From contig NC_054701.1 in assembly GCF_016097555.1 (NCBI RefSeq), forward strand, positions 3,803,688-3,867,687: a DNA stretch of 64,000 nt, written 5' to 3'. The DNA comes from Gigantopelta aegis. Its lineage: Eukaryota; Mollusca; Gastropoda; Neomphalida; Peltospiridae. The notes beneath the pieces are model-generated. The model was not told the origin of the DNA and ran no database searches. It saw only the letters and a program-made list of their open reading frames with translations. This document shows positions 1,049 through 58,200 of this stretch, piece by piece; within the stretch, counting starts at the first letter, position 1; the number at the start of each line of letters is the position of its first letter. The position numbers and the translations under genes were made by a program.

Positions 1049-1806
1049 CTATTGAGGATTCTGAATGTTTGCTCCTACCGGAATGCATGGGCCGCAGAAA
1101 CGGACTGGTATACTGATTGGATGGAAAACAAGAGAAGAACCTTCAATGCTGGATAAGTACGACTGTGGAACCCTTGCTGGATCTATGGAGATGGGAAAGT
1201 AGTGACTGCCAGATGGGTGAAGAACAAATCCAGGAAGATACAAGTTGATGTTGGAATCAGACGCTGGTTGTGCTTGACCTCCAGCTGATTTGACGCTGCT
1301 GTGCAGGGCGCTTTGATTATAGCTGCCATCGCTGGAACTGGGATAAGCCGTCGATCCATGACTGTAGCTGAACAGCATTTTTTTCAGTATTCTTTGTCTC
1401 GCCGTCTGCAGATTATGCTCCTCGTGGGAACTGCTCGAGGATGTGTCACTTTGCTGGACCTTCTGCGCTTGTTGTGCGAAACGCTGAGTGATGTTGTATT
1501 TGAACTTGTAGGTGCCTTGTCCAGAGCAGCTAGATGAATTGGATATTTTGTAATTTGCGTAAAACTCCTGTGCTGTGCTAGAGGTCAACTGCACGCTTTC
1601 TGTTTGGCACTTTCTCAAAGGGAGGCTCATGGACGAAAACGCCGAATCCATGTTTGTAAAGCCACTGTCGGAGTTTATATAGTTGTCGTTTGAAATGTTC
1701 CCATCTGCAGATGATGGCGATAACGAATCGGAAGAGCCACGGCTAGTCATTCTAGTTGGGTATGACAAAGTGCCGTTGTAATCAACATCTTCCTTTATCC
1801 TTCTCC
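1049..1806 (-). CDS. cwo: cwo copy 1, exon 6: Ser-rich C-terminal region
   Basis: It is 758 bases from a TTTTGTTACAG acceptor to TAG at 1049-1051. The first half is Ser-rich ([26 protein letters not shown]). [12 protein letters not shown] block follows, then the conserved tail [16 protein letters not shown] and [13 protein letters not shown]. The last third is nearly copied in the paralog, while the first half is much more diverged. Confidence 0.88.
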
Positions 1807-4800
1807 CTGTAACAAAATAACACCAAGTTATAAATACTACTATGTTTGATTATTAGTGGTTCATATTATTTAATGAAGAATTATACTAAACATAAAAAAA
1901 CTAGTGCAAAAGGCTACATACATAAAAGGTGCAGATCATCTAGTCACCCCTAGATAAATTGTGCACGAAATAATAAGAAATTTAGCCTTAATTAGGAAAA
2001 CATTCAATACAAGTAAAATAGAGTGTAATTGCTACTTCACAAAATTAAGGGTAAATACCCTCTGGAGCAATTTAAGGTTGTTCAGTCTTCCTCTTCCTTC
2101 TGTAGAACAAACCTATCACTGAATATAATGAAACGGTATTGCACTGTACATGCACTGTCTACTAGATATTACTAATACGGCATCAGCACTTCGTGTGTGG
2201 ACAAATATAAAGTATCAGTCATATTTGAATATCCTTGTATTTAAATTGTAATTTGAACATTTCCAAAGGAAACATATTACAAAGTGTTGTTCTGATTCAA
2301 CATCATAGTCTTAATATAAAGAGAAATTACAATCGAGGGTAGTTCGATCATACTAACTAAAGTGAACAGGATTCACTTACATGACCTGCATCACCTTAAA
2401 GACTATTTTGAATATATGGACGCTTCAACCATTGGAGTAGAATAACTAACTTATCTTTTTTTTGCGAATGGATTCATTTCTTTTTATTATCATACATCCG
2501 AGGATTTTAGTTTGTAATAAATGTTCAGCTTACCAGTAGGTAGGAACTTCTTGGCGGCTTTGCCGAGATACTCCATCATGCAGACACAGACTTGGTCCGA
2601 CATGTTGTTGTCCTCGTTCTCGACAAGGAAGCGCATGACCTCGTCCTGGCACTCCTTGAAGCCCATGTAGAACTTGGAGATGCAACACGGTTTGGCATTC
2701 TCACCCAGGGGAGTCAGACACATAGGGTCTTGACCTTTCTCAAATTCTGAAAACAAGACATTGTTCATTATGTTTTGTGCTGGTCAGTTTAGTATCGATT
2801 TGTTTCAGGTAGAACCATGCCGATTGAATTGATAGAACTGACAGTTCTTCTTTTATTCATTTATCTGTTTAATGTAATGATTGTCATAGATAATCAGCAT
2901 GTTTGGTTCTATTTGTTAAACTTGTTATTATTTATCGTAAAGCTTATTAATTTAATTTAATTTATTTAGTTTGCAACTGAATGGTTTCTGAAAATAATAA
3001 CACAGTAGCTGAAAATGTTAAACATATGATAAAAGACTACATCTATTTTGGGTTGTAGTCCCTAAGCATCTGTTTTAAGACACTACAGCGCTGTCTGTAA
3101 AAATAACTTAAATGCATGATATAATGAATGAATAAGAAAATATACATCTTATAGTTTCAGACTGAATCATCATCAAGTACTCACCATTTTTCTCAACATC
3201 TGTTTGAAGACTCTTGATTAACTTTATTGCCATTTCAATGATTTCAGTTTTTTCAATACGTCCTTGGCTCTAAAAAGAGTATAAAGATATATAGGTTGAA
3301 TATTGAGAATCTAAAGACAAATATCTGTTACGTGATCTGCTGTGCATATCTTCCGAGTATCACCTTGTGCTTGCATGTTATATAAGGGGAAATACATAAA
3401 TGTCAATGTTTAGTTCCTTCTTACATTGTTCAATATTTACAGGAGTCTGAATGAGTACGGTAGGTCAGATATAATTTTATTTTATTGTTCATATTACAAT
3501 ATTTATTTAGTGATAAAAAAATTATATTAAATACTAGTTAGATATTGAGTAATTTTTATAACATTAGTAACATCTTACACTGGTGTGTAATATATTACAC
3601 TATTTAATTAGTGATACAAAAATGATATTAAATAATCATGTATCATTTTGAGTGGGCTTTTATTTTTGTTTAATACACATCTTAAATTATGAATATTTAA
3701 AGTTTTTAAAGTTAAAAATAAATTATATAAATCTAAATTAATAAAACTAATATGTCGTTTTATCTAAAAATGTTTCTCATTGTTTAGAAGCTCCCTGTAT
3801 TGAGTATAAAAATAATTATGATGCAATATAGAACTATAACAAAAACAACTGTTGATAAATTAAGTCAAATATTATTTTAATAGTCATTTTAAAAGTAATT
3901 CTTGATTTATGCTCCTTCTGACCTAAATTATCACCAGACTCCCCTGTTCCTCAATAATGTTACCTGTTTCGAATAGTGACTCGGCATCAGTTTGTTCAGA
4001 TCGGCCAAGCAGTTGTTCATTCGATCTCGTCGCCGTTTTTCAGTGATGCGATGGGATGTTGCATCCTATAAAAACATAGAATGAATTTAAAAATTAAATT
4101 TGTTTTAAGGATGCCAGCTTATTAACAAAATAAAGGACACGTATCAACACACTTAAATGATTTATACTGGAGTTGAACAAACAGCTCCTTTCGAAATGGG
4201 TCAAATCCAAAAGTAGTTTTTGGTTGTGGACAAATTGTCTTAAGTTCATCAGTGGACGAAATATACAGTGGACGAATCATGCGCAACCCAAACACGGATG
4301 CTGTTTATGGGTTACACCATTATTGCAGACAAACAATGGTGTAGTAAAATATCTAGCGGACGAATTCTCCAAATGTATTTATTTTGTGTGTAGACGAATT
4401 GCCTCGAGTTCATAAGCGGACAAACGTTTTGGTGAATGAAATGTACAGTGAACAATTCATTTTTAACCCGTCTATGAATGCTACATAAGTGTGAAGAAAT
4501 CGTCCATGGACGTAATGTACACATAATGCCATTTAAGGATCAATCCATTATGGCATCCAATCATTGGTGTGAAGAAATCGTCCATGGACGTAATGTACAC
4601 ATAATGCCATTTAAGGATCAATCCATTATGGCATCCAATCATTGGTGCGAGGAAATCGTCCATGGACGTAATGTACACATAATGCCATTTAAGGATCAAT
4701 CCATTATGATGTACAATCATTGGTGTGAGCAACAGCTAATGGACAAATTGGCCAAAAGTAATTTTTGGTTGTGGATTAATTGTTTCGAGTTGTCAGTAAA

Positions 4801-16233: not shown

Positions 16234-16782
16234 TTAAAGGGACATTCCTGAGTTTGCTGCAATGTTTAAGATGTTATCGACTAACAGACTTTTTAACGAT
16301 TGTAATTACATATCAAATATATTTTTCTGCATAAAATATTAGTGGCTGTATATTAAACGTGTTTCTGATCGTTCTAATATTTGTACTAGGTTAAATTTCA
16401 ATTTATTTCCTAAAATATATGTTTTCGTACGTACAAAATTATTTGAAGACAAAATCCAGTTTGGGCTTCTTACAAATATTAAGACGACCAGAAACACACT
16501 GATATTCTAAACAAGAAAATATATTTAATATAAAAGTTTAATCATAAAACTATTTTATTAGTCGGAAACATCTTACAATGCAGCAAACTCAGGAATGTCC
16601 CTTTAAGAGAAACATCTTACAATGCAGCAAACTCAGGAATGTCCCTTTAAGAGAAACATCTTACAATGCAGCAAACTCAGGAATGTCCCTTTAAGAGAAA
16701 CATCTTACAATGCAGCAAACTCAGGAATGTCCCTTTAAGAGAAACATCTTACAATGCAGCAAACTCAGGAATGTCCCTTTAA
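16234..16782 (+). mobile_element. TTAA-flanked MITE with amplified right end
   Basis: The body matches the 15484 copy and reaches its normal right end at 16606. The right-terminal 44 bp, including the inverted repeat and TTAA, are then repeated four more times, ending at 16650, 16694, 16738 and 16782. Confidence 0.85.
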
Positions 16783-16849
16783 AGACTGATTACACTAATT
16801 ACATTTCCAACTACTTTGAATGCACACAACCTAATAGGAAAAAGGAAAC

Positions 16850-17776
16850 GAATAAACACTCATTATTGTAGCAAATAACTGAACTGTAGAACACTCATTA
16901 TTGTAGCAAATAACTGAACTGTGTAGAACACTCATTATTGTAGCAAATAACTGAACTGTGTACAACACTCATTATTGTAGCAAATAACTGAACTGTGTAC
17001 AACTCATTATTATATCAATGCAAATAACTGAACTGTGTACAACACTCATTATTGTAGCAAATAACTGAACTGTGTAGAACACTCATTATTATATCAATGC
17101 AAATAACTGAACTGTGTACAACACTCATTATTATATCCATGCAAATAACTGAACTGTGTACAGCACTCATTATTATATCAATGCAAATAACTGAACTGTG
17201 TACAACACTCATTATTATATCAATGCAAATAACTGAACTGTGTACAACACTCATTATTGTAGCAAATAACTGAACTGTGTAGAACACTCATTATTATATC
17301 AATGCAAATAACTGAACTGTGTACAACACTCATTATTATATCAATGCAAATAACTGAACTGTGTACAGCACTCATTATTATATCAATGCAAATAACTGAA
17401 CTGTGTACAACACTCATTATTATATCAATGCAAATAACTGAACTGTGTACAACACTCATTATTGTAGCAAATAACTGAACTGTGTACAACTCATTATTAT
17501 ATCAATGCAAATAACTGAACTGTGTACAACACTCATTATTATATCAATGCAAATAACTGAAATGTGTACAGCACTCATTATTATATCAATGCAAATAACT
17601 GAACTGTGTAGAACACTCATTATCATATCAATGCAAATAACTGAACTGTGTACAACTCATTATTATATCAATGCAAATAACTGAACTGTGTACAGCACTC
17701 ATTATTATATCAATGCAAATAACTGAACTGTGTAGAACACTCATTATTATATCAATGCAAATAACTGAACTGTGTA
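16850..17776. repeat. Minisatellite with 36-41 bp units
   Basis: About two dozen units are built on AAATAACTGAACTGTGTACA plus CACTCATTATT. Two unit types alternate: a shorter one with TTGTAGCAAATAACT and a longer one with TTATATCAATGCAAATAACT. The minus-strand frames with repeated VHSSVICIDIIMS are products of the repeat, not a gene. Confidence 0.9.
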
Positions 17777-17956
17777 AAACATCCTTCAGAACCATGGTAA
17801 TGTTCCAACAGTGTCTTAACATGATGTTCTCCAAAATCAGAAATATTTAACACGTGTGGTTTTTATCACTTTTATGGAATCACAGGAAAGAAATGGTAAA
17901 TTTCTGAACTTAAAAGCAATATTATAGTATAAATGTTTCAGTTCATTATTCACAAT

Positions 17957-20900
17957 CTCATACACAAAATACACAGACACAATATTTACCGCCTGAATCA
18001 TCATACTCTGGCCACAAAATACACAGACACCATATTTACCGCCTGAATCATCATACTCTGGCCACAAAATACACAGACACCAGATTTACCGCCTGAATCA
18101 TCATACTCTGGCCACAAAATACACAGACACCAGATTTACCGCCTGAATCATCATACTCTGGCCACAAAATACACAGACACCACATTTAGCGCCTGGATCA
18201 TCATACTCTGGCCACAAAATACACAGACACCACATTTAGCGCCTGGATCATCATACTCTGGCCACAAAATACACAGACACCACATTTAGCGCCTGGATCA
18301 TCATACTCTGGCCACAAAATACACAGACACCACATTTAGCGCCTGGATCATCATACTCTGGCCACATTATGAACAGACACCACATTTACCGCCTGAATCA
18401 TCATACTCTGGCCACATTATGAACAGACACCACATTTACCGCCTGAATCATCATACTCTGGCCACATTATGAACAGACACCACATTTACCGCCTGAATCA
18501 TCATACTCTGGCCACATTATGAACAGACACCACATTTAGCGCCTGAATCATCATACTCTGGCCACAAAATACACACACCACATTTAGCGCCTGGATCATC
18601 ATACTCTGGCCACAAAATACACAGACACCACATTTAGCGCCTAGATCATCATACTCTGGCCACAAAATACACAGACACCACATTTAGCGCCTGGATCATC
18701 ATACTCTGGCCACATTATGAACAGACACCACATTTACCGCCTGAATCATCATACTCTGGCCACATTATGAACAGACACCACATTTACCGCCTGAATCATC
18801 ATACTCTGGCCACATTATGAACAGACACCACATTTACCGCCTGAATCATCATACTCTGGCCACATTATGAACAGACACCACATTTACCGCCTGAATCATC
18901 ATACTCTGGCCACATTATGAACAGACACCACATTTACCGCCTGAATCATCATACTCTGGCCACATTATGAACAGACACCACACTTACCGCCTGAATCATC
19001 ATACTCTGGCCACATTATGAACAGACACCACACTTACCGCCTGAATCATCATACTCTGGCCACATTATGAACAGACACCATACTTACCGCCTGAATCATC
19101 ATACTCTGGCCACATTATGAACAGACACCATACTTACCGCCTGAATCATCATACTCTGGCCACATTATGAACAGACACCATATTTACCGCCTGAATCATC
19201 ATACTCTGGCCACATTATGAACAGACACCATATTTACCGCCTGAATCATCATACTCTGGCCACAAAATACACAGACACCATATTTACCGCCTGAATCATC
19301 ATACTCTGGCCACATTATGAACAGACACCATACTTACCGCCTGAATCATCATACTCTGGCCACATTATGAACAGACACCATATTTAGCGCCTGAATCATC
19401 ATACTCTGGCCACATTATGAACAGACACCATATTTAGCGCCTGAATCATCATACTCTGGCCACATTATGAACAGACACCATGTGTAGCGCCTGAATCATC
19501 ATACTCTGGCCACATTATGAACAGACACCATGTGTAGCGCCTGAATCATCATACTCTGGCCACATTATGAACAGACACCATACTTAGCGCCTGAATCATC
19601 ATACTCTGGCCACATTATGAACAGACACCATACTTAGCGCCTGAATCATCATACTCTGGCCACATTATGAACAGACACCATATTTACCCCCTGAATCATC
19701 ATACTCTGGCCACATTATGAACAGACACCATATTTAGCGCCTGAATCATCATACTCTGGCCACATTATGAACAGACACCATACTTAGCGCCTGAATCATC
19801 ATACTCTGGCCACATTATGAACAGACACCATATTTACCGCCTGAATCATCATACTCTGGCCACATTATGAACAGACACCATACTTACCGCCTGAATCATC
19901 ATACTCTGGCCACAATATGAACAGACACCATACTTACCGTCTGGATCATCATACTCTGGTCCCATTATGAACAGACACCATACTTACCGCCTGGATCATC
20001 ATACTCTGGTCCCATTATGAACAGACACCATACTTACCGCCTGAATCATCATACTCTGGCCACATTATGAACAGACACCACATTTACCGCCTGAATCATC
20101 ATACTCTGGCCACATTATGAACAGACACCACATTTACCGCCTGAATCATCATACTCTGGCCACATTATGAACAGACACCATACTTACCGCCTGAATCATC
20201 ATACTCTGGCCACATTATGAACAGACACCATATTTACCGCCTGAATCATCATACTCTGGCCACATTATGAACAGACACCATATTTACCGCCTGAATCATC
20301 ATACTCTGGCCACAAAATACACAGACACCATATTTACCGCCTGAATCATCATACTCTGGCCACATTATGAACAGACACCATACTTACCGCCTGAATCATC
20401 ATACTCTGGCCACATTATGAACAGACACCATATTTAGCGCCTGAATCATCATACTCTGGCCACATTATGAACAGACACCATATTTAGCGCCTGAATCATC
20501 ATACTCTGGCCACATTATGAACAGACACCATGTGTAGCGCCTGAATCATCATACTCTGGCCACATTATGAACAGACACCATGTGTAGCGCCTGAATCATC
20601 ATACTCTGGCCACATTATGAACAGACACCATACTTAGCGCCTGAATCATCATACTCTGGCCACATTATGAACAGACACCATATTTACCCCCTGAATCATC
20701 ATACTCTGGCCACATTATGAACAGACACCATATTTAGCGCCTGAATCATCATACTCTGGCCACATTATGAACAGACACCATACTTAGCGCCTGAATCATC
20801 ATACTCTGGCCACATTATGAACAGACACCATATTTACCGCCTGAATCATCATACTCTGGCCACATTATGAACAGACACCATACTTACCGCCTGAATCATC

Positions 20901-23900
20901 ATACTCTGGCCACATTATGAACAGACACCATACTTACCGCCTGAATCATCATACTCTGGCCACAATATGAACAGACACCATACTTACCGTCTGGATCATC
21001 ATACTCTGGTCCCATTATGAACAGACACCATACTTACCGCCTGGATCATCATACTCTGGTCCCATTATGAACAGACACCATACTTACCGCCTGAATCATC
21101 ATACTCTGGCCACATTATGAACAGACACCACATTTACCGCCTGAATCATCATACTCTGGCCACATTATGAACAGACACCACATTTACCGCCTGAATCATC
21201 ATACTCTGGCCACATTATGAACAGACACCACACTTACCGCCTGAATCATCATACTCTGGCCACATTATGAACAGACACCATACTTACCGCCTGAATCATC
21301 ATACTCTGGCCACATTATGAACAGACACCATACTTACCGCCTGAATCATCATACTCTGGCCACATTATGAACAGACACCATACTTACCGCCTGAATCATC
21401 ATACTCTGGCCACATTATGAACAGACACCATATTTACCGCCTGAATCATCATACTCTGGCCACATTATGAACAGACACCATATTTACCGCCTGAATCATC
21501 ATACTCTGGCCACAAAATACACAGACACCATATTTACCGCCTGAATCATCATACTCTGGCCACATTATGAACAGACACCATACTTACCGCCTGAATCATC
21601 ATACTCTGGCCACATTATGAACAGACACCATATTTAGCGCCTGAATCATCATACTCTGGCCACATTATGAACAGACACCATATTTAGCGCCTGAATCATC
21701 ATACTCTGGCCACATTATGAACAGACACCATGTGTAGCGCCTGAATCATCATACTCTGGCCACATTATGAACAGACACCATACTTAGCGCCTGAATCATC
21801 ATACTCTGGCCACATTATGAACAGACACCATACTTAGCGCCTGAATCATCATACTCTGGCCACATTATGAACAGACACCATATTTACCCCCTGAATCATC
21901 ATACTCTGGCCACATTATGAACAGACACCATATTTAGCGCCTGAATCATCATACTCTGGCCACATTATGAACAGACACCATACTTAGCGCCTGAATCATC
22001 ATACTCTGGCCACATTATGAACAGACACCATATTTACCGCCTGAATCATCATACTCTGGCCACATTATGAACAGACACCATACTTACCGCCTGGATCATC
22101 ATACTCTGGCCACAATATGAACAGACACCATACTTACCGTCTGGATCATCATACTCTGGTCCCATTATGAACAGACACCATACTTACCGCCTGGATCATC
22201 ATACTCTGGTCCCATTATGAACAGACACCATACTTACCGCCTGGATCATCATACTCTGGTCCCATTATGAACAGACACCATACTTACCGCCTGGATCATC
22301 ATACTCTGGCCACATTATGAACAGACACCATACTTAGCGCCTGGATCATCATACTCTGGCCACATTATGAACAGACACCATACTTAGCGCCTGGATCATC
22401 ATACTCTGGCCACATTATGAACAGACACCATACTTAGCGCCTGGATCATCATACTCTGGCCACATTATGAACAGACACCATACTTAGCGCCTGGATCATC
22501 ATACTCTGGCCACATTATGAACAGACACCATACTTAGCGCCTGGATCATCATACTCTGGCCACATTATGAACAGACACCATACTTAGCGCCTGGATCATC
22601 ATACTCTGGCCACATTATGAACAGACACCATACTTAGCGCCTGGATCATCATACTCTGGCCACATTATGAACAGACACCATACTTAGCGCCTGGATCATC
22701 ATACTCTGGCCACATTATGAACAGACACCATACTTAGCGCCTGGATCATCATACTCTGGCCACATTATGAACAGACACCATACTTAGCGCCTGGATCATC
22801 ATACTCTGGCCACATTATGAACAGACACCATACTTAGCGCCTGGATCATCATACTCTGGCCACATTATGAACAGACACCATACTTAGCGCCTGGATCATC
22901 ATACTCTGGCCACATTATGAACAGACACCATATTTACCCCCTGAATCATCATACTCTGGCCACATTATGAACAGACACCATATTTAGCGCCTGAATCATC
23001 ATACTCTGGCCACATTATGAACAGACACCATACTTAGAGCCTGAATCATCATACTCTGGCCACATTATGAACAGACACCATAGTTACCGCCTGAATCATC
23101 ATACTCTGGCCACATTATGAACAGACACCATACTTACCGCCTGAATCATCATACTCTGGCCACATTATGAACAGACACCATACTTACCGCCTGAATCATC
23201 ATACTCTGGCCACAATATGAACAGACACCATACTTACCGCCTGAATCATCATACTCTGGTCCCATTATGAACAGACACCATACTTACCGCCTGGATCATC
23301 ATACTCTGGTCCCATTATGAACAGACACCATACTTACCGCCTGGATCATCATACTCTGGCCACATTATGAACAGACACCATACTTAGCGCCTGGATCATC
23401 ATACTCTGGCCACATTATGAACAGACACCATACTTAGCGCCTGGATCATCATACTCTGGCCACATTATGAACAGACACCATACTTAGCGCCTGAATCATC
23501 ATACTCTGGCCACATTATGAACAGACACCATACTTAGCGCCTGAATCATCATACTCTGGCCACATTATGAACAGACACCATATTTACCCCCTGAATCATC
23601 ATACTCTGGCCACATTATGAACAGACACCATATTTAGCGCCTGAATCATCATACTCTGGCCACATTATGAACAGACACCATACTTAGCGCCTGAATCATC
23701 ATACTCTGGCCACATTATGAACAGACACCATATTTACCGCCTGAATCATCATACTCTGGCCACATTATGAACAGACACCATACTTACCGCCTGGATCATC
23801 ATGAACAGACACCATACTTACCGCCTGGATCATCATACTCTGGCCACAATATGAACAGACACCATACTTACCGTCTGGATCATCATACTCTGGTCCCATT

Positions 23901-26380
23901 ATGAACAGACACCATACTTACCGCCTGGATCATCATACTCTGGTCCCATTATGAACAGACACCATACTTACCGCCTGGATCATCATACTCTGGCCACATT
24001 ATGAACAGACACCATACTTAGCGCCTGGATCATCATACTCTGGCCACATTATGAACAGACACCATACTTAGCGCCTGGATCATCATACTCTGGCCACATT
24101 ATGAACAGACACCATACTTAGCGCCTGGATCATCATACTCTGGCCACATTATGAACAGACACCATACTTAGCGCCTGGATCATCATACTCTGGCCACATT
24201 ATGAACAGACACCATACTTAGCGCCTGGATCATCATACTCTGGCCACATTATGAACAGACACCATACTTAGCGCCTGGATCATCATACTCTGGCCACATT
24301 ATGAACAGACACCATACTTAGCGCCTGGATCATCATACTCTGGCCACATTATGAACAGACACCATACTTAGCGCCTGGATCATCATACTCTGGCCACATT
24401 ATGAACAGACACCATACTTAGCGCCTGGATCATCATACTCTGGCCACATTATGAACAGACACCATATTTACCCCCTGAATCATCATACTCTGGCCACATT
24501 ATGAACAGACACCATATTTAGCGCCTGAATCATCATACTCTGGCCACATTATGAACAGACACCATACTTAGAGCCTGAATCATCATACTCTGGCCACATT
24601 ATGAACAGACACCATAGTTACCGCCTGAATCATCATACTCTGGCCACATTATGAACAGACACCATACTTACCGCCTGAATCATCATACTCTGGCCACATT
24701 ATGAACAGACACCATACTTACCGCCTGGATCATCATACTCTGGCCACAATATGAACAGACACCATACTTACCGTCTGGATCATCATACTCTGGTCCCATT
24801 ATGAACAGACACCATACTTACCGCCTGGATCATCATACTCTGGTCCCATTATGAACAGACACCATACTTAGCGCCTGGATCATCATACTCTGGCCACATT
24901 ATGAACAGACACCATACTTAGCGCCTGGATCATCATACTCTGGCCACATTATGAACAGACACCATACTTAGCGCCTGGATCATCATACTCTGGCCACATT
25001 ATGAACAGACACCATACTTAGCGCCTGGATCATCGTACTCTGGCCACATTATGAACAGACACCATACTTAGCGCCTGGATCATCGTACTCTGGCCACATT
25101 ATGAACAGACACCATACTTAGCGCCTGGATCATCGTACTCTGGCCACATTATGAACAGACACCATACTTAGCGCCTGGATCATCGTACTCTGGCCACATT
25201 ATGAACAGACACCATACTTAGCGCCTGGATCATCGTACTCTGGCCACATTATGAACATACACCATACTTAGCGCCTGGATCATCGTACTCTGGCCACATT
25301 ATGAACAGACACCATACTTAGCGCCTGGATCATCGTACTCTGGCCACATTATGAACAGACACCATACTTAGCGCCTGGATCATCGTACTCTGGCCACATT
25401 ATGAACAGACACCATACTTAGCGCCTGGATCATCGTACTCTGGCCACATTATGAACAGACACCATACTTACCGCCTGGATCATCGTACTCTGGCCACATT
25501 ATGAACAGACACCATACTTAGCGCCTGGATCATCGTACTCTGGCCACATTATGAACAGACACCATACTTACCGCCTGGATCATCGTACTCTGGCCACATT
25601 ATGAACAGACACGATACTTACCGCCTGGATCATCGTACTCTGGCCACATTATGAACAGACACGATACTTACCGCCTGGATCATCCTACTCTGGCCACATT
25701 ATGAACAGACACGATACTTACCGCCTGGATCATCCTACTCTGGCCACATTATGAACAGACACGATACTTACCGCCTGGATCATCATACTCTGGCCACATT
25801 ATGAACAGACACGATACTTATCGCCTGAATCATCATACTCTGGCCACATTATGAACAGACACGATACTTACCGCCTGAATCATCATACTCTGGCCACATT
25901 ATGAACAGACACCATATTTACCGCCTGAATCATCATACTCTGGCCACATTATGAACAGACACCATATTTACCGCCTGAATCATCATACTCTGGCCACATT
26001 ATGAACAGACACCATATTTAGCGCCTGAATCATCATACTCTGGCCACATTATGAACAGACACCATATTTAGCGCCTGAATCATCATACTCTGGCCACATT
26101 ATGAACAGACACCATACTTAGCGCCTGAATCATCATACTCTGGCCACATTATGAACAGACACCATATTTACCGCCTGAATCATCATACTCTGGCCACATT
26201 ATGAAGAGACACCATATTTACCGCCTGAATCATCATACTCTGGCCACATTATGAACAGACACCATATTTACCGCCTGAATCATCATACTCTGGCCACATT
26301 ATGAACAGACACCATACTTAGCGCCTAAATCATCATACTCTGGCCACATTATGAACAGACACCATACTTACCGCCTGAAT
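17957..26380. repeat. 8.4-kb array of a 50-bp satellite unit
   Basis: There are about 168 head-to-tail units containing GAATCATCATACTCTGGCCA and ATTATGAACAGACACCAT. Variants differ at a few positions (TTACCGC or TTAGCGC; CACATTATGAAC or CACAAAATACAC; CTGAATC or CTGGATC). The marker CACAATATGA recurs at 19911, 20961, 22111, 23211, 23844 and 24744. One unit near 23795 is 16 bases short. From about 25034 to 25670 a CATCGTACTC variant dominates. On the minus strand units with TTACCGC read GCGGTAAGTATGG, a near-perfect splice-donor sequence. Confidence 0.95.
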
Positions 26381-26387
26381 ATAAAAA

Positions 26388-29300
26388 AAATAGAGGAGGC
26401 AGGCATAGTGGCAGATGACTACGTGTTAATACACAAAGCTCAGGCAGTACAGGGTAGCTCTATACAACAGGGTGATACGAAGAAATTTCAGCCAGGTTTT
26501 TCCCGGGAAAGTAACTATCGGGGAGAGTCATCTAGTTGGTCAGCTAGTCAGGCAAGGAATGCACCGGGTGGGCAAAGTAAGGATAAGCCTGCATTATCAG
26601 CCAATGCACGAACTTTTCGTCCACATTGCAGTTACTGTAAAAAGGATAACCATCTTGTCGGGGACTGTTTTAAAAGGAAACGCGATAATGCGCAAGTGGT
26701 CGGTTTAGTGAGGTCAGCTCCGTTAGCGAGAGAGTTAATGGTTAGTCCCATGGCAGAGAAAGTAAACCCGTATGTGTCCACTGGTATGGTTTGTGACGTA
26801 AAACAAGAGTTGAGTCCTAAGGCAATATCAATCTATCGAGATACAGGGTGTAGCCAGTCGCTTATCACGTCAGATTGTTTAGCTGGTATTAAGAATTCAG
26901 ATACAGGACGTAGTTTGGTCTTAACCTCGGTTACTGGAGAAAATATGGTTGTCCGGTTACAACTGTGTTCGAAGTTTGTGACGGGACCAGTCGATATGGG
27001 TGTTGTGAAGGACTTGCCTGTTGAAAACATAGGAGTTTTGTTGGGTAACGATTTGACTAGTCAGTGTTGCCAGCCCCAAGGTGACAAATTGTTAATTGAA
27101 GACAGCCCTTTATCCATAAAAGAGTGTGAGGTTGATGAGATTAGTTATCCTGCGGGTGTAATGACTAGGGCTATGGCCAGAAGGGTAACACGAGACCCAG
27201 AGGATATTTGTGATTTGTCTGATACGTGTGTGAGTCATGAAATTGGAGTGGATGAGGTTATCAGTAAAATGGTAGATAAGTCAACTGAGGAATTAAATGT
27301 GGTGGAACCTGTTGACCTCCCGCAGAGGGTAAATGAACCAGTTGTGTTTGATAGAGGGGACTTACCTTGTAATAGACAAGAGTTAATCCTAGAGCAGGGG
27401 GCTGATCCAAATTTGTTGGCAGCTCGCACTACATTGTTAAATGAGGGAGTATTAATGAATAAGAGAGTTAGAGATAGGAGGTTGCCGGCGACCGAACTAG
27501 CTAGGAAGCACCTGAGCTATGCTCAGAGCAAAATAAAATCAGTGTTTGATAGGAAGGCTAGGAGTCGGGAATTTAAACCAGGGGATAAGGTGCTGCTGTA
27601 CCTTCCCATTAAACGGGGTTCATTACAGAACCGGTATTTCGGTCCCTATGTTGTGCACAAACGAGTTAATGAGACAGGGTATGTGATAAACACTCCTGAT
27701 AGGGTTAGGAAAAGTAGGTATTGTCACATCAATTTGCTAAAAGGTTATTTTGACAGACTGCCGATAGTTCCAGAGTTACCTGTCCAAATTGAGAGTCACT
27801 CAATTTCCCGTGATGACGTCAAGACTGCAGAGATCAAATTAACCAACAGCCAGATTCTAGCAGACTTGAGTCCGGACTTGCACCTTGACAGCCCCCAGCG
27901 AGCAAAGTTGACTACGTTGATTCAAGACAATGTTTCCATTTGTTAGGACCTTCCAACGGTTACCAATACCTTAAGCCAGGATGTGCGCTTGGAACCCAAC
28001 GCTACACCGAGTCGACAGCATGCCTATCGGAGAAAACCTGTAAAACGTGTGACACTGAAAAAGAAGGAATCGAAGTTCCAGTGGTCAGACGAATGCGACA
28101 AGTCATTCAACCGTCTCAAGCAGATGCTCTCCTCGTCTCCCGTGATGGCAGCACCAGACTACCGAATGCCCTTCAAGCTAGCTGTGGATGCCAATGACGT
28201 AGGAGCTGGAGCTGTGCTGTTCCAAGAAGACGAAAATGGACTGGACCATCCTGTAAGTTTCTTCTCCAAAAGGTTTGACAAACACCAGGTGAACTATTCC
28301 ACTATAGAGAAGGAAGCTTTGGCCATGGTACAAGCTCTGAAGCATTTTCAGATCTACGTGAAATCGGCAGTGCATCAAGTGGTTGTCTTTACGGACCATA
28401 ATCCGCTCACTTTCATTCACAGAATGAAAGCCACCAACCAGAGAGTTTTGAGATGGAGTCTTCTTCTGCAGGAATTCACAATTACCATTGAACACATCAA
28501 GGGCACTTCCAATGTAATCGCTGATGCCCTGTCCTGAAGTTGAACGTTATGATAATGTGTTGACATTCTTGATTTCTGTTTTGTTTTTATATATTTTATT
28601 GTATACCAGGGACTCAGAGACTCAGTGTGATTACTGGTAGTCACCTTATTACTATGTGTTATAAATGCCCGGATGCGTCGGTTAACGCACTTTTTGTTTT
28701 AATGTAGTATATTTCCCTATTCCTAGAGTAGAGGAAATATCCTTTTTGAGGTGGGGGTGTGTGACAGAACATGCTCTTAATTTCTTTTCGCCTGTGGCGA
28801 TATTAATTGTTTTAGAGGGCCGTGTGCAGTCCCAATATGCACTTAGACTAGCTGAGCACTTTGTTACGTAATACCTCCGCGCGACCGTACCCTCTAATAC
28901 ACACCCAGACCATGTGCGGAGGCCATGTGGCCAGTAGCTACGTAATACCTACGATAGTGCGGTTTTTACGACCGTGATTTGGCGAACTAGGCGACAGTAA
29001 GTCTGGCCATCTAAGGAAAAATATGCCGTCTTGGTCTCTGTGGAAATATCACTTGTAGGTATTCGGTACCGCCTTCTGCCCCCAGGCGATATTCGCTGTC
29101 TCTGGGATTTTATAATAAATAGCTAGAATTTTAGATATATCGGGGAGAAACATATTGGACGGCTGTGGGGAACGTTAGTCCGACTGGACTTGGTAATTAT
29201 ATATTTTCTGCTCTGTTGTATAACCTTGATGTAATTGATGTGACTTTAAATATTTTAATACTGTATTATACCAATATTATTTAGACAGTGTTTCCGGTAA

Positions 29301-29915
29301 ACTGACGAAGTAAATTGTAGGCTTCACTGTCTAAAATTATTAAAGCTTAACCAGTCATCCTAGAGGACCTAGGTAAACTGTAGTTTATTGTCTTTATTGT
29401 GATAGGTACCAGTATTAAGTCTGTATTACAAGGTTACTGAATGAGTAGTTAAGGGTTAATAAAAAATTAACCAGTTAGGAATAGAGTTGTAATTCCTTTA
29501 TTAATTAAGTTCCCCTGGCAACGTTTCTCAATTATCACACGTGTGTGTGTTGTATCACTGTGAAGTGATTAGAATATTGCGTAAACTAGACACCTAGTGA
29601 TTAACTAATTAAGTGATTAGTTCTGGGTTGTTATATTTATTGTTGTTGTTAACTAATTAACTGCGGCAAATATATTTTGTCAGCTTAAGGTTAATACAGA
29701 TTCCAAAGTGTATTGTGTTTTGTTGTGTTTTCTAGTGAACTAACGTGCTATATTATATATACTTTATATAAGATCTTATCTCTGTTTATACCTAGAGCCG
29801 AGCTACTCGGGTATACACTGCCCGATACAGAGAGATCTAATAGAGATACAGTTAGGAGAGATATTTGGATAATCGTGTTTTATTCAGTTACGGGTACTAT
29901 AGGATCCCCGTGACG
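26388..29915 (+). mobile_element. Gypsy-type LTR retrotransposon A, broken
   Basis: Recognisable parts are a gag end with a CCHC zinc knuckle (CSYCKKDNHLVGDC), an aspartic protease-like segment, an integrase C-terminal-like segment (about 27430-27770), an RNase H segment (about 27980-28530), a purine-rich tract just before the LTR, and one LTR. The parts are not in the usual complete set or order. It is broken with multiple breaks and abuts the 50-bp array on its left. The gag part is almost identical to element B at 60752, so the family was active fairly recently. Confidence 0.85.
28760..29915 (+). repeat. LTR of Gypsy element A
   Basis: It runs from TGTGACAGAACATGC to CCCCGTGACG, about 1156 bp, preceded by the purine-rich GAGGTGGGGG. 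It aligns with the 5' LTR at 60752-61806, which is shorter. Confidence 0.8.
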
Positions 29916-34789: not shown

Positions 34790-37605
34790 TCTTAAAACAC
34801 TTACCTGAATCATCCTTAATGGTTCTATTAAATATCTTTAACAAAATATGGATTTCTGGTGACTTTCCTACTGACTGGAGAAAAGCCATTGCCATTCCTA
34901 TTCCTAAGCCTGGTAAGGATCCAACAAATCCTACCAGTTATCACCTTATTGCTTTGACAAGTTGCATTTGTAAAACCATGGAAAGAATTATCAACCGTAG
35001 ACTTGTCTGGTATCTTGAGTCCCACAAATTGCTTACTAACATGCAATATGGGTTCAGGACTAGACGTAGCACGGTTGATCATCTTATTAGATTTGAAACG
35101 TTTTGTAGGGATGATTTTATCCATAACCAGCATTTGGTATCGGTCTTTTTTGACCTCGAGAAAGCTTATGATACCACGTGGAAGTATGGGATTTTGAAAG
35201 ACCTCCATGGCATGGGCTTAAGAAGCCGTATGCCTGACTTTATCTCAAATTTCTTAGAGAATAGGTCTTTCAAGGTACGAGTGGGATCTACGTTATCCGA
35301 TTCTCACTCCCAAGAGATGGATGTGCCTCAAGGTAGCATCCTGTCAGTAACTTTATTTTCCGTGAAAATTAACAGCATCACCCAGTGTTTAAAACCTGGT
35401 GTTGATAGCTCGTTATATGTCGATGATTTTCAGATTTGCTACAGGTCGTCCAGTATGAGTATCATTGAACGTCAGTTGCAGCTTTGTTTGAATAAACTTC
35501 AACAATGGGCAACTGACAATGGATTTCGATTCTCAAAGTCAAAAACAGTCTGTATGCATATCTGCCAGAAAAGAGTTCACCATTTAGATCCTCAGCTGTT
35601 TCTGGACAAAACTCCGCTTCCAGTTGTGGAGGGGACCAAATTTCTGGGGGTTATTTTTGACAGGAGGCTATCTTTTGTTCCTCATTTACAGTATGTGAAA
35701 AAGAAGGCCTTAAAGGCCCTCAATATCGTAAAAGTTATTGGCAACACTGAATGGGGAGCAGACTTTATAGATCTTTAGTTCGGTCTAAACTTGATTATGG
35801 GTGCATTGTGTATGGGTCAGCACGTAAGTCTTACTTGCAAATGCTAGATCCTATACACAACCAGAGACTTAGGCTTTGTCTTGGTGCTTTCAAAACATCT
35901 CCTGTGGAGAGCTTGTACACGAACCTAGTTTGGGTGCTAGATGTGCAAAGCTTTCTCTGCAGTATGCTACAAAGATTAAATCAATGCCAAAACATCCTGC
36001 ACACAATGCGGTGTTTGGTAATAAATATATGAAGTTATTTGATGCGAAACCGAATGCGATTCGAACATTTGGTCTTCGCATTAAGCAGTTTTTATCAGTT
36101 TCCAACACTGATTTAACAGACAATTTGGAAACTCCTTAATATTTTATTTTGCCACCTTGGTGTATCAAACCACCAAAAATTGTATTCGATCTTGTGCATC
36201 TAAAAAAAGATCGCACAGATGCAGTTATTTATAAACAACATTTCATGGAAATCCAAGAGAGGTACTGTGATTACATTCCTGTTTACACAGACGGATTACG
36301 GGATGGGAATTCTGTGGCTTGTGCTACAGTTTTTCCATCAGACGCAATAATTTCCATGAGATTTCCCGATTCAGCATCAATCTTTACTGCTGAAATTTGG
36401 GCAATCATTAAAGCCCTGGAACAGATTAAGGATTCATGTGCATCCAAGTATATTATTTTTACAGACTCACTTTCGTGTCTCCAAGCTCTACAGTACATGA
36501 AATTGGAGCATCCCTTAGTTGGGATGGTTATACGAAAATGTGTCTTTTTATCAATTGCCAATAAAGATGTTATATTTTGTTGGGTACCCAGCCATGTTGG
36601 CATTAAGGGTAACGAAAAGGTAGATGTTGCTGCCAAGTCTGCTTTGAACTTGCCCCGTCTCCATGTTGGTGTCCCCTTCAGTGATTTTAAATTTCATATT
36701 AACCAATATATCTTTTCGACTTGGCAAGATGATTGGGACGGTGCGGTTGCGAACAACTTCATTCTGTCAAGGCAGTCCTGGGAGAGTGGTAGTCATCTTA
36801 CAGGCGGTGCAGGAAGGATGAAGTAGTCTTATGCCGTGCCCGCATCGGCCATACATATTTAACGCATTCCTTTATTTTAAAGAAGGACCCTCCTCAGTGT
36901 GAACACTGACTGTGCGGCACATTTTGGTGGAGTGTGATCATCTCAAGCCGACGAGAAATGATATATTTGGCAACAGAAATGTTTTGGAATCGTTTAAATT
37001 CCATCCAATGTTAATTGTAAAGTTTTTAAAACACTTCAACTTCTATAAAAAAAATTAAGATATACTTAAAGGGACATTCCTGAGTTTGCTGCAATTTTTA
37101 TGATGTTATCGACTAACAGAGACTTTTTTAACGATTGTAATTACATATCAAAGATATTTTCCTGCATAACATATTAGTGGCTGTATAGTAAACGTGTTTC
37201 TGATCAATCTAATATTTGTACTAGCGTAAATTTCATTTTATTTCCTAAAATAAAGTTTTTTCGTACGTACAAAATCCAGTTTGGGCTTCTTACAAATATT
37301 AAGACGACCAGAAACACATTGAATTTACAGACACTGATATTCTAAACAAGAAAATATATTTAAGATGTAAGTTTAATCGTAGAAATATTTTATTAGTCGG
37401 AAACATCTTACAATGCAGCAAAGTCCCTTTAACTTGATTTTATATATTGTATTATGCTTTCCCACACAGGTCCTTACACTGTGGTTTTACATAGCTATAT
37501 ATAAATAATATGTTCATATACTTACCATTTGTGACACCCAATACCCGATATGTATTTTTGTGCTGGGGTGTCGTTAAACAAACATTCATTCATTCATTCA
37601 TACAT
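34790..37605 (+). mobile_element. I/Nimb-like LINE copy, ORF2 RT to 3' end, broken
   Basis: It is 5'-truncated. The RT domain (34819-35778) has NRRLVWYL, GFRTRRSTVDHL, FFDLEKAYDTTW, PQGSILS and the catalytic YVDDF. Frameshifts lie near 35760 and 35935, and a nonsense TAA sits at about 36137 where sister copies have TCA. RNase H (36283-36650) shows YTDG, FTAEIWAIIKAL, FTDSLSCLQAL and WVPSHVGIKGNEK, and a further frameshift lies near 36825. The 3' UTR holds a MITE at 37066-37432 and ends in CATT repeats. RNase H plus the terminal Cys/His motif points to the I superfamily. Confidence 0.85.
37066..37432 (+). mobile_element. TTAA-flanked MITE inside the LINE 3' UTR
   Basis: It is 367 bp with the family 1 ends. 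The right inverted repeat has lost about 10 bases (CAGCAAAGTCCCTTTAA instead of CAGCAAACTCAGGAATGT...). It is younger than the LINE copy it sits in. Confidence 0.8.
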
Positions 37606-51484: not shown

Positions 51485-52269
51485 TTAGTTGCTTTCGTGT
51501 GCTTGTGCTTGAATGTTTCCTTCTATTTTAATGTTTGGGCCGCAAAATCGAACTGGGATACTGATCGGGTGGAAAACAAGGGATTGATGTCCGTAGATGG
51601 ATACAAACGACTGTGGCACACTTGCTTGATCTATGGAGATGGGAAAGTAGTGACTGCCTGATGGATGAAGAACAAAGCCAGGAAGGTGCGAACTGATGTT
51701 GGAATCAGACGCTGGTGGTGCTTGACCTCCAGCTGAATTGACACTGCTGTGCAGGGCGCTTTGATTATAGCTGCCATCGCTGGAACTGGGATAAGGCGTC
51801 GATCCATGACTGTAGTTGGACAGCAAAGTCTTCAAATCGCTTCGTCTCGCCGACTCCTGATTCGCCTCTTCTTGGGAACTGCTCGACGATGTGTCACTCT
51901 GCTGTAGTTTCGACTGCTCTTGGCAAAAGCGTGTGGTGAATATGTGTTTGAACTTGTAGTTGCTTTGTGCGCAGCCACTAGACGCATTGCCTCCGTCATC
52001 ATTCGCGTTGCCGTCCTTGTCCGTGTTAAAATAGAACTGCATACCGTCTGTTTGGGATTTCGTCAAAGGCAGACTGATGGATGAAAAGGCTGAATCCATG
52101 TTTGTAATGCCACTGTCAGAGCTGATACTTCTGTTCTTCTTTTCTGTCATCTCATTGGCCGAATTTCCATCTGTGGATGATGGTGATGCGTCATAAAAGC
52201 CACCGCTGGCCTGTGCAGCTGTGAGTGATGAAGTACTGATATAGCCACTGTCGCTAATGTCTCTGCCAA
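51485..52269 (-). CDS. cwo: cwo copy 2, C-terminal exon
   Basis: The acceptor is TTTTTTTACAG at 52270 and the stop TAA at 51485-51487. The exon begins [14 protein letters not shown], holding a DSGYIS motif at 52235-52252. A Ser-rich region ([15 protein letters not shown]), a [11 protein letters not shown] block and the conserved tail [15 protein letters not shown] follow. The last third is nearly identical to copy 1. Confidence 0.88.
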
Positions 52270-55200
52270 CTGTAAAAAAATATGTTTAAAATGGTGGTTG
52301 TGTTTAATTAGCTGTAAGCCACTAGCAATACTCAGTGAATGAAACAGACCATCCATACAGTGCCCATATTCCTCAAAAACATTGATCGTAACTGTTAAGC
52401 AGTGTAAAATAGCTTCGACTAAATGTATCCTTAAATTACATATTATATTCCCCGTTTTATTCAATTCTGGCAAATGCAGTGTGTTCCAGGTTATAGGCTT
52501 ATAAAACGTTTAGAGTCTACACTCAAGACTAATAGAATCGGATACTTTAACCTCACGGCAACGCCATACAAATTACAAACGTGTGACGTCCAGTGGGCTC
52601 CCATTGTTAAACAAAAGGAGACACATATACTTATAACTACAATAATGTCATTCAATTATTATAATTTTTATACCAGAATATTTGTTTATTTTTTTTTTTG
52701 TTATTATATGGAGGAGCCATAGTAATCATACCATTGTATTCTGAGATAAATGTATCAAGAATAGAATTCTAGAAATCAGAAATGCTTGACTAATGGTGGG
52801 ATCCAGGTGGAACCCTGATATACAGCTTAGTAAATTCTGGCAACTGGACTGATGAGGATTAATGTTTGCAACTTACGTGTAGGTAGGAACTTCTTGGCGG
52901 CTTTGCCGAGATACTCCATCATGCAGACACAGACTTGGTCCGACATGTTGTTGTCCTCGTTCTCGACAAGGAAGCGCATGACCTCGTCCTGGCACTCCTT
53001 GAAGCCCATGTAGAACTTGGAGATGCAACACGGTTTGGCATTCTCACCCAGGGGAGTCAGACACATAGGGTCTTGACCTTTCTCAGATTCTAAAATGAGA
53101 CATTGTACATTATTTCGTGTTAATACTAATTTTTAAAATGTGATATCTGAATTGCTTGTAGTGAGACAGCATGAAACATTGTATTACAGGATACCAAATC
53201 ACCATTTTGGCGTTTCAAATTTAAACAGTAAATATTTTAATCCTGCAACCACAGTTTCGTTTGACAGAATATGATGACGGATAAAGCAAAGTCATATCCT
53301 GCTACTTGCATGGTATGACTTGACGATGTGACGTCACATGCATAGCTTACATTACAAAATCGCTCATTTGACCTTTAGGTCATCGTACAATGTGGTTGAA
53401 ATAACAGAAATAATAACTTTTCCCCTTAATGTTTATGGTCTGCAGGATAAAGAAAATAACTAGTTAATGACGTCGGATATCTGCTTTATCCTGTTCAGGC
53501 TGAATGAGAAATTCCGCTCGGCACAGCCTCGAGGAATTTCCCATTCTTACCTTCACAGGATAGTTATTCTCTGTTAAAGAGACATTGTAAATATTTTAGC
53601 ACGTGTGTATTAACAACATGAACATGCTGCAATGGACATTTGTTAAACATTTTTGGTTGTAGTTTATAATTATACAATGACTGACAGTTGGAATCAAACA
53701 TTAGCACGATCTGCAATCACAATGTTAAAAGAGTTCTACACCAGGCCATCTACATCTGGCAGTATCATTTCTTTAAACAAGTAAAAGCCCGGTCTGGAAA
53801 TCTTGGTCGATTCAAGATTCACACATCAGCCTAATCTTGTTCGACTGGATGCCCTTCTCTTCCATGTAACATTCACCCGGAGAGTGGTGTACACGTGTAT
53901 GAACGACAGCATTATCACCAAAATGGATATTATATATTGGTACCATATTCAGTTCTCATTTGTATGTTTTATAAATAAATAAATAAATATGTAGATCATA
54001 AGACTAAAACAGAGCAGGACAGAGAACAGTTGCTACCCGAGAAACTGTGAGAAAAGCTTAGCAATGATGACCCTGTATTACAGTTCTCTGGTTCTTTCTT
54101 ACTGGACCTCACCCCTCCCGCTATTTTAGGCTAGTATTGAATGAATGAAATAATTAATGAAAGAATGTTTAACGACACACCAGCACAAAAATACACATCG
54201 GCTATCGGGTGTCAAAAATGTAAGTATATGGAGATATTATTTATACAATTATATAAAACACAGTGTAAAGAGCTGTGTGGAAAAGTACAATACAATACAA
54301 CTATTAAGGTAAGTAGGCCTATATTTTAAAACTTTATAGTTTTTTAAAAACTTTAAAATTAATTCAGGATGGAATTTAAAAGATTCCGAAACATTTTTGT
54401 TGCCAAATATATATTTTGTCGTCAGCTTCAGATGATTACACTCCACAAAAATGTGGCGCCAGTCAGTGTACACTGAGAATGTTCACACTGATAAATGAGT
54501 GCACCAAATATGTATGGCCTGGCACGGCACAAGGCTACTTCATCCTTCATACACCGCCTGTGTTGAAGACTAAGCGGGAAACACAACAAACTTGGTAGTA
54601 CAAATTTAGCATGACGACCGTGAATACACGTCAGTCTCATAGTACCAGTAAGTGGTCGTCAGTGGAGTGCGATTTATTATTATTATTATTTTGATCTAAG
54701 GAATCATAGGAAAACTTAACTGTTGGTTAATTTTTTTAAACGTTTTATTTTAATGTTTAAATCTGATAATAAAAAAAGTCCCTGTCTAAAACCTATAATT
54801 ATTCTCTTCAATGGTTAACAGTTTAAAAAAAAAAAAAAAAAGGCAATTATGGGTTTTCAAATATTGGTCCAACAATGCTGGTAGTAGGCAACGGGTGGCT
54901 GTATGTATGTTGATCGCCAGTCCCTATGGAGTAGTTTTAAGCCCTTACGACCATCAGAGTAGGTACCGTTCTTTGCCTTATCTGTCTGAAGGTTCTTTAT
55001 TAACTTGATTGCCATTTCAATTATTTCAGTTTTTTCAACACGTCTCTGACCCTAAAACAATATAATATAAAAATATATATACAACTTGAATACATGTTTA
55101 TAAAATAATATAAAAATATACACAAAATAATATAAAAAATATATACAATAATGAATTATGAATCTAGGGAAACGTCTACTCTCAGTAATCTATGCTAGGA

Positions 55201-58200
55201 AAAATATACATGTTGTACAATTGTTTAAGTTCTTATATATTTCGACATTAATAGTAATATGAATTATTTGAAATACTTTAAATAAGTATACATGTATGAT
55301 ATCCGGTAATATCGTACCATTTTCTGTATTAATTTACAATTTAATAATTAATCATAACAGTTTAACATTGAATATATTATGATATAAATTAATATTAGGT
55401 ATTTGTGTACGTTTCGAAATACGTTACCATTATCCATCTAAAATATTTTTAAGGACGAATATGACAAAGAAATAATTAATAAGAAGATGAACTGTCCTGA
55501 TTATATAAATACAGTTACGTGATCGATAACGCACCACTGAACACTTACGACACCTCGCAGTTACCTCGAGCACTTCTTGAATTCTCCATTCTTTTTCACG
55601 AAGTATTCGTTTGTCAGTATATATTTCTGTTTTCGCATGTCGCAATATTACTAAAACAACTTGATTCCGTGTGTCACTGTTATAGAATAACAATTTTTTT
55701 ACCCGTTTTGATACACTGCGAATGTTCATTAATATTAAGGTGACCTTTGTAAAATACCGTTTATTACCAAAACCCTCAAATCAAAACGGCATATATCAAT
55801 CAGTTATAACTTACTTCACCACTTCTTGCACAATGTAGATGACTTTGATATGGTGTTTAACACATGGAAATAAACGCATAACGTTTTAGACATTATTTAT
55901 TTTCGTTAAATGGGTGGGATAAAAATTATCATTTATTAATATGCAATACGTGATATACGGCTATTCAACCTTCGATTATATAATCTGGTTATGTACAGCA
56001 AATTATGTACCCTTTTCAAATCTGATTCTTTACCTCAAATATTTACATTATGGAATCCAGACTACATATATGGTGATCACTGAAAAATAACTGATCGAAT
56101 TATAGTTTTGTTTTATGAGTTGTGACTTCCGCATAGAATATTTTCATTAACAATAATGGAAACAGGCCAGGAAACTCCAACTTCACTTCGATGAAATTAT
56201 TATTTTTTAAAAATATTCTGATATTAATACTTTGCGTATCATTCGGAAAGGTTTCTCTTAAACACACTGCAATCCGATGTTATGTTTGAATTATGGTATT
56301 TCATAAAAATGGTTGTAGCTACACGGCCGTTTCACTGGATAAATGCATTAGTTATCATGGGAAGGATGACTGCTATTATCGGTTTTGGTTTGCATTTTCA
56401 GGTTCAATAAAACTATCTAAAGTTTCATACGGAAAAAAAAGTCCTGACTAAACGTATTACATATTTTGTTTTCCAATCTTCAACTAGTAATGTTTTCTTT
56501 TGTTTTAAAAAAAAGTATTTTCCTGTCTCAGTAGTAGGGCCTGATTCTCTATCACTCAACCTACTTGACGAATTCTCAGAAACCGAGGATATTTTAGTAT
56601 CATTTGCTTTTGTGTCTGCTGTGCTTCAGTTCCTTTTTGTATGTTTCTCAGTTTTCTCAACATCGCAGATTATTATTATTATTATTATCATCATCCCACA
56701 TAAATGTTCTTAACATCGCTGTCAGGCTGCTCTTCGCTAAATCACTTCTGGGGGAGAACTTGTCTGGAGCATCATTAGACGTCCTTGTCGAATCAGAATT
56801 TAGAGTACCCGCTGTTGTCCTAGATTCATAAAAGAGGGTGTTCTTATCTTGAACTTGCTGAACCCTCTTTGCATTTGTTAAAACGAATTCAGCCGAGTGG
56901 GAACATGTCTCCCCTTGCTTTATAACAGTATCGAACATTATAAAGGTCCGTCTGTGGTATACCATTTTGTTTTACCCCACAAACATTTTGGCATTTGAAC
57001 ATTCACTTAAGGAAATTGGAATATATGGCTCAATAAATATGTTGAAGTAGCCAGTCTTAGTGGATAATGGAAAGAATGACTGAACGTCTGCTGTCACTAG
57101 GTGCCAACAGCAGGAAACCCCTACTGTTAAATGAATGAATGAATGAATGAATGAATGTTTGACAACACCCCAGCATGACAAATACATCGGCTATTGGGTG
57201 TCAAAGAATGGTAAATGACAACTGTCAAACAAGTGACGGAAAACCCATACATCTGATTATGACCCATTTGAGAAACATTCAAAAGGTAAACAAATAGTTA
57301 ATATAAAGGTTTAATGATACTAACCCTAGTTACCAGACAATGAAATATATTTTCCGTTGTTAAAGATTGGGGTTTTTTAATATATATTTTTTTAATCTTT
57401 ACATTCGTCAACTTCTTGTTTAAATTGTCAATGTTTGCAAAATCCGATTTGGTAATGGCTGCCATGGTGTTTATTTGCTCTAAATACATTTTACGTAAAA
57501 TATAAAAAAAACGTATGTCCCTCAGAAATTAGAGTCAGTGTCTTATTAAAAATAAAATAAAGTATGCATTCATTCAATTAATCATTCATTTCAGTTCATT
57601 TTCGTGCTTATATCTAGTTAAGGTTCAAGCACGCTGTCCTGAGCAAACACCACAGCTATCTGGGCTGTCTGTCTACGACAGTGGGTTCTTAGTGGTTAGT
57701 ATGTCTTTTGGCCAAACTATATAAATCCTATAAACAGTTTTCTTTATTAAAGTAAAACAAAAATCAAAACATGAAGTGCATGATTGTTCAAACTTTATGT
57801 TCTCAAGAGAATTTTGTTTAATATTGTTGATTTACCATTCATCATATCACGCACTTTTGTAATAATTCCACAAATGCTACACAGACCACTTAAGGGCCAT
57901 TTCAGTTCAACTGATGTTCGTGGTTATATCGAATTACGGTTTAGGTACGCGGTCCTTGACACACTCACCTCAGCTACCTGGGCTGTCGGTCCAGGACAGT
58001 GTGTTAGTTGGTTAGTGGTTGTGAGTGAGAAGAGGGTGTAGTGGTCTTACACCTACCCACTGAGTTGTTAAAACTCACTCGCTCTGGGTGGGAGCATGCA
58101 CCGGGCTGCGAACCCTGTACCTACCAGTCTTGTGTCCGATGGATTAACCATGACACCGGTTTAAGGAACAAAGAATGTTTTATATGCACATTCACTTACA

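Follow-up and report, generated by a model that had tools for sequence, protein, structure and literature searches.

The nearest case that we found to the gene pair described here comes from the annelid Capitella teleta, for whose two Dlx genes PMC3199776 reports gene conversion, found with GENECONV, over a 150 bp tract that takes in homeobox and intron sequence. The same paper names conversion between the engrailed and invected genes of insects. Mosaic concerted evolution, in which some exons of a pair evolve in concert while others have diverged, is described for the mammalian pairs BMP8A/B, DDX19A/B and TUBG1/2 in PMC2720389.

Here we describe two bHLH-Orange genes within a 64,000-nucleotide stretch of the genome of the gastropod Gigantopelta aegis (the window), and we regard them as an unusually sharp new case of an already known phenomenon, gene conversion between paralogs. 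Like the Dlx genes, they are linked, duplicated developmental transcription factor genes whose high nucleotide identity is limited to a conserved-domain part, giving a mosaic pattern inside the gene. The two systems differ in three respects: the Dlx genes are inverted tail to tail, whereas the bHLH-Orange genes share one orientation; the Dlx tract enters an intron, whereas the tract described here stops at both introns; and the homogenised part here is the Orange exon rather than the DNA-binding domain. The engrailed/invected case, as named there, likewise involves conversion within a conserved part of paralogous genes for transcription factors, in that case homeobox genes. The mammalian pairs resemble ours in combining concerted and diverged exons within one pair, but by the design of that survey their tracts include introns, and the tract in the bHLH-Orange pair does not. 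No literature title on gene conversion in bHLH-Orange genes appeared among the matches listed.

Organisation of the gene pair

Gene 1 (1049-4065) and gene 2 (51485-58413) lie in tandem, separated by about 50 kb, on the minus strand of a single 96.8 Mb contig, and both read open from the bHLH exon through to the stop codon. The basic region and helix 1 of gene 1 are encoded by bHLH exon a (3964-4065, 102 bp; PF00010), helix 2 by bHLH exon b (3185-3269, 85 bp), the Orange domain by an exon of 213 bp (2534-2746; PF07527), and the end of the protein by the last exon with the stop codon (1049-1806). Their counterparts in gene 2, all on the minus strand as well, are exon a at 58312-58413 (102 bp), exon b at 54967-55051 (85 bp), the Orange exon at 52877-53089 (213 bp) and the last exon with its stop codon at 51485-52269. 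When joined, exons a and b and the Orange exon of gene 1 score 54.2 bits against PF00010 (cut-off 20.7) and 25.9 bits against PF07527 (cut-off 25.3), with bHLH preceding Orange, and the Orange exon of either gene by itself reaches 26.4 bits against PF07527.

The translations of both genes carry a bHLH signature that may be that of the clockwork orange (Cwo) branch. Hes and Hey factors bear a C-terminal WRPW or YRPW motif; both motifs are absent from the C-termini of the two proteins, which end in ...GANIQNPQ and ...HESN. The pair is best read as clockwork-orange-like, a name that we use provisionally. Clockwork orange is a group E bHLH-Orange factor known in lophotrochozoans, according to PMC8166818. 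Upstream of the bHLH exons, neither tblastx nor a search for K/R-rich ends followed by phase-0 donors yielded a candidate 5' exon common to both genes. A reading in which gene 1 has no separate 5' exons and serves as an additional 3' cassette within a single transcription unit is conceivable but gained no support.

An Orange exon almost identical between two diverged genes

Comparison of the two Orange exons reveals a difference at 3 of 213 bases, each at an edge of the exon. On the plus strand the differing sites are offsets 0, 1 and 209, corresponding on the coding strand to the last two bases of the exon and to exon base 4, and the 207 bases between them (offsets 2-208) are consecutively identical. 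The identical tract thus stops at most 4 bp from one exon edge and at most 2 bp from the other. In each gene AG and GT lie directly outside the 213 bp, which identifies these borders as the true exon borders. Identity spans both the linker, that is, the exon codons preceding the Orange domain, and the Orange domain itself.

The remainder of the coding sequence has diverged extensively. Exon-by-exon estimates by the Nei-Gojobori method give a dS of 1.28 for bHLH exon a (22/102 bases differ), 1.48 for exon b (18/85) and 0.65 for the last exons (204 of 753 aligned bases), as against 0.025 for the Orange exon, whose lone silent change falls in its last codon, at the exon edge. The sequence-only reading from which this analysis started had given the same counts for the Orange exon and the two preceding exons, and had stated that all internal silent sites match; the counts proved exact and the statement on silent sites holds.

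Two permutation analyses place these figures against chance. The aligned coding sequence of the pair comprises 1152 bases with 246 differences; when these were permuted 20,000 times, the longest identical run averaged 24.8 bases and never exceeded 63, and the observed run of 207 was reached in none of the 20,000. A similar picture emerges from comparable codons, defined as degenerate codons whose amino acid agrees between the two genes, of which there are 262, with 60 silently changed. The changed codons are distributed as 10/24 in exon a, 7/21 in exon b, 42/153 in the last exon and 1/64 in the Orange exon, the last contrasting with 59/198 in the other three exons taken together (Fisher p = 2e-7). 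The longest stretch free of silent change, 63 codons, lies wholly inside the Orange exon, and the maximum in 20,000 permutations was 47. The earlier judgement that selection on the protein is a poor explanation is borne out by these 63 silent-free codons beside frequent silent change elsewhere in the pair, and its reading of gene conversion is supported by both the identical run and the distribution of silent changes.

Similarity had also been said to fade into both introns, and it does so within roughly 25 bp of either border, beyond which it falls to the level of unrelated intron ends. The residual flank similarity gives scores of 31 and 18, against non-homologous maxima of 26 and 10, and bHLH exon a, though not homogenised, reaches a comparable 32 at its donor flank. 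No non-coding bases lie in the homogenised tract, and identity enters neither intron. Some surveys, PMC2720389 among them, demand intron similarity as proof against selection. The Orange exon lacks the similarity that such surveys require. In the intron 3' of the first bHLH exon, about 80 bp of genes 1 and 2 can still be aligned, more than at the other exons; the alignment of 3886-4071 with 58238-58419, at 75.5% identity, covers bHLH exon a and this downstream intron.

Comparison with the rest of the genome

The assembly searched comprises 1.149 Gb in 5216 contigs. Searching all of it with the Orange exon DNA returned two matches, both inside the window, and a search with the last-exon peptide returned no match beyond the pair. 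With the bHLH peptide of gene 1 as query, paralogs are recovered at 53-57% identity (E 3e-5 to 3e-3), whereas with the Orange peptide, the pair aside, no paralog in the assembly scores better than E 0.3, the three further matches being weak (E 0.33, 0.34 and 3.1). Since the bHLH is recognisable across paralogs and the Orange domain hardly so, the closer match within the pair would be expected in the bHLH. The gene pair shows the reverse order, its Orange part being more alike than its bHLH, a pattern that protein constraint, as gauged from these paralogs, would not predict.

As a control, open frames were compared in all 55 pairs of 11 bHLH-Orange loci, with L010 and the weak hits L015-L018 set aside; against the 207 identical bases of the present pair, the next-longest common run was 23. 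By their motifs, the other loci presumably include Hes (contig C15), Helt (C8) and Hey (C7 and C2784) genes. Scans for orthologs produced no match in prokaryote genomes and, in viral contigs, two 37% matches over about 36 residues (residues 10-45) that we judged spurious.

The assembly keeps some alternative haplotypes, as contig C5060 indicates. This contig aligns to 57531-59224 with 1648 of 1706 positions matching and 22 gaps, so that 36 of about 1684 ungapped bases mismatch (about 2%), and is best read, from this alignment, as a haplotig that carries the upstream part of gene 2 in its other haplotype. The Orange exon is absent from it. At about 2% mismatch, roughly one change would be expected over the 40 silent sites of the identical core; none is seen, and the proposed conversion may accordingly be as old as the split of the C5060 haplotype or younger. 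The event can be dated in this way only by a loose bound.

Origin of the identical tract

Recent interlocus gene conversion confined to the Orange exon very probably accounts for these observations. According to this model, one bHLH-Orange gene would have been duplicated in tandem long ago to give genes 1 and 2, most silent sites would then have diverged, and a patch of DNA from one copy would subsequently have overwritten the Orange exon of the other. The extent of the patch would have been limited to the homology that remained, the introns having already diverged; the tract would therefore end within 4 bp and 2 bp of the exon edges because the introns had lost homology. We infer all three elements of this model: the conversion event, its recency relative to the duplication, and the setting of its edges by lost intron homology. 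If the model is correct, the pair offers a very clean exon-confined conversion, with 207 identical bases beside exons whose dS exceeds 1, and indicates that lost intron homology can trim conversion to a single exon. Dating by an Orange-domain tree would then place the duplication as recent, where the bHLH exons say that it is old.

Extreme purifying selection on the nucleotides of the exon since the duplication, imposed by an overlapping regulatory, splicing or RNA function, would also predict that identity stops almost exactly at the exon borders, as it does. That exon sequence can be better conserved than introns is moreover illustrated by the haplotig, in which exon a of gene 2 shows 0/102 differences within an alignment carrying the 36 mismatches noted above. 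Such selection would, however, have to constrain about 40 silent sites in one exon beside bHLH exons that are near saturation, and we consider it improbable. The RNA folding of the Orange exon is ordinary (z = -0.47) and Rfam has no match within the window, results that remove two simple sources of nucleotide constraint and leave others. Simple codon preference is not responsible either, given that the exon keeps G/C-ending and A/T-ending codons alike. Raised third-position GC is a usual mark of repeated conversion, and the GC3 of the Orange exon is 0.72, compared with 0.25-0.53 in the other exons of the pair. Within the exon it is 0.88 in the Orange part and 0.52 in the linker, the former value falling inside the 0.49-0.92 span of 11 other Orange domains in the genome.

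The tract stops no more than 4 bp from one exon border and 2 bp from the other, a shape that would also suit an RNA- or cDNA-templated conversion, with the Orange exon of one gene mended from a reverse-transcribed message of its paralog. Once the introns have diverged, however, ordinary conversion from DNA is expected to leave these same edges. A cDNA would have offered the neighbouring exons too, yet those are not homogenised, and the search of the assembly, with only two genomic matches to the Orange exon, recovered no processed copy of it; we hold this route to be highly improbable. Still harder to credit is an artefact in which reads of one copy were placed at both loci. The assembly is indeed fragmented beside its large contigs and contains at least one haplotig, but the window has no N, the search of the assembly recovered no haplotig bearing the Orange exon, and the two copies differ in their edge bases and in the introns on either side, where misplaced reads would have brought the flanks along.

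It is conceivable, if rather doubtful, that the Orange exon is under permanent concerted evolution, conversion and selection together keeping one common Orange (dimer/partner) module while the bHLH and C-terminal parts diverge. Were this so, the two factors would be forced to common partners while their targets drift, and the introns would act as the walls of the unit of exchange. Should homogenisation recur, the pair could serve to test selection for a common partner-binding module combined with separate DNA-binding modules.

A second patch of low divergence

A further stretch of low divergence lies in the last exons, at 1166-1378 in gene 1 and approximately 51614-51826 in gene 2 (both minus strand), the latter placed by the constant offset of the BLAST alignment. 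Here 17 of 213 bases differ, and two blocks of 40 codons have a dS of about 0.25. The longest silent-free run of the patch, 23 codons, was reached in 242 of 20,000 permutations, a frequency to be read in the light of the post hoc choice of the patch, and the protein is also conserved across it. Judged by these values, the patch may be an older conversion tract, which would fit mosaic conversion. Just 3' of the stop codon of gene 1, at 835-914, lies a decayed partial copy of the last exon. Examined for evidence of a transfer from gene 2, this piece proved uninformative, its distance to the two genes being about the same (65 and 68 of 96 sites).

Repeats around the genes

The region between the two genes contains tandem arrays over 16565-26380. 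These consist of an array of 44-bp units (16565-16782), one of 42/205-bp units (16855-17781) and an 8.4-kb array with a 50-bp unit and a 150-bp higher-order period (17973-26380). Sequence around gene 2, and also beyond it, is matched by two non-coding blocks (26391-29914 and 35308-37063), and a larger recent segmental duplication was considered on their account. The repeat search covered the first of these blocks, as distinct from 35308-37063, with 27018-28962 as its query; it gave at least 49 matches on many contigs (40 scored of 3271 candidates), as a high-copy repeat would, and the segmental duplication was rejected. The 26391-29914 block is a high-copy dispersed repeat that occurs again at about 60.8-63.5 kb and past the right end of the window. 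Another high-copy repeat, of about 330 bp and with matches on many contigs, occupies 53233-53563 in the intron upstream of the gene 2 Orange exon.
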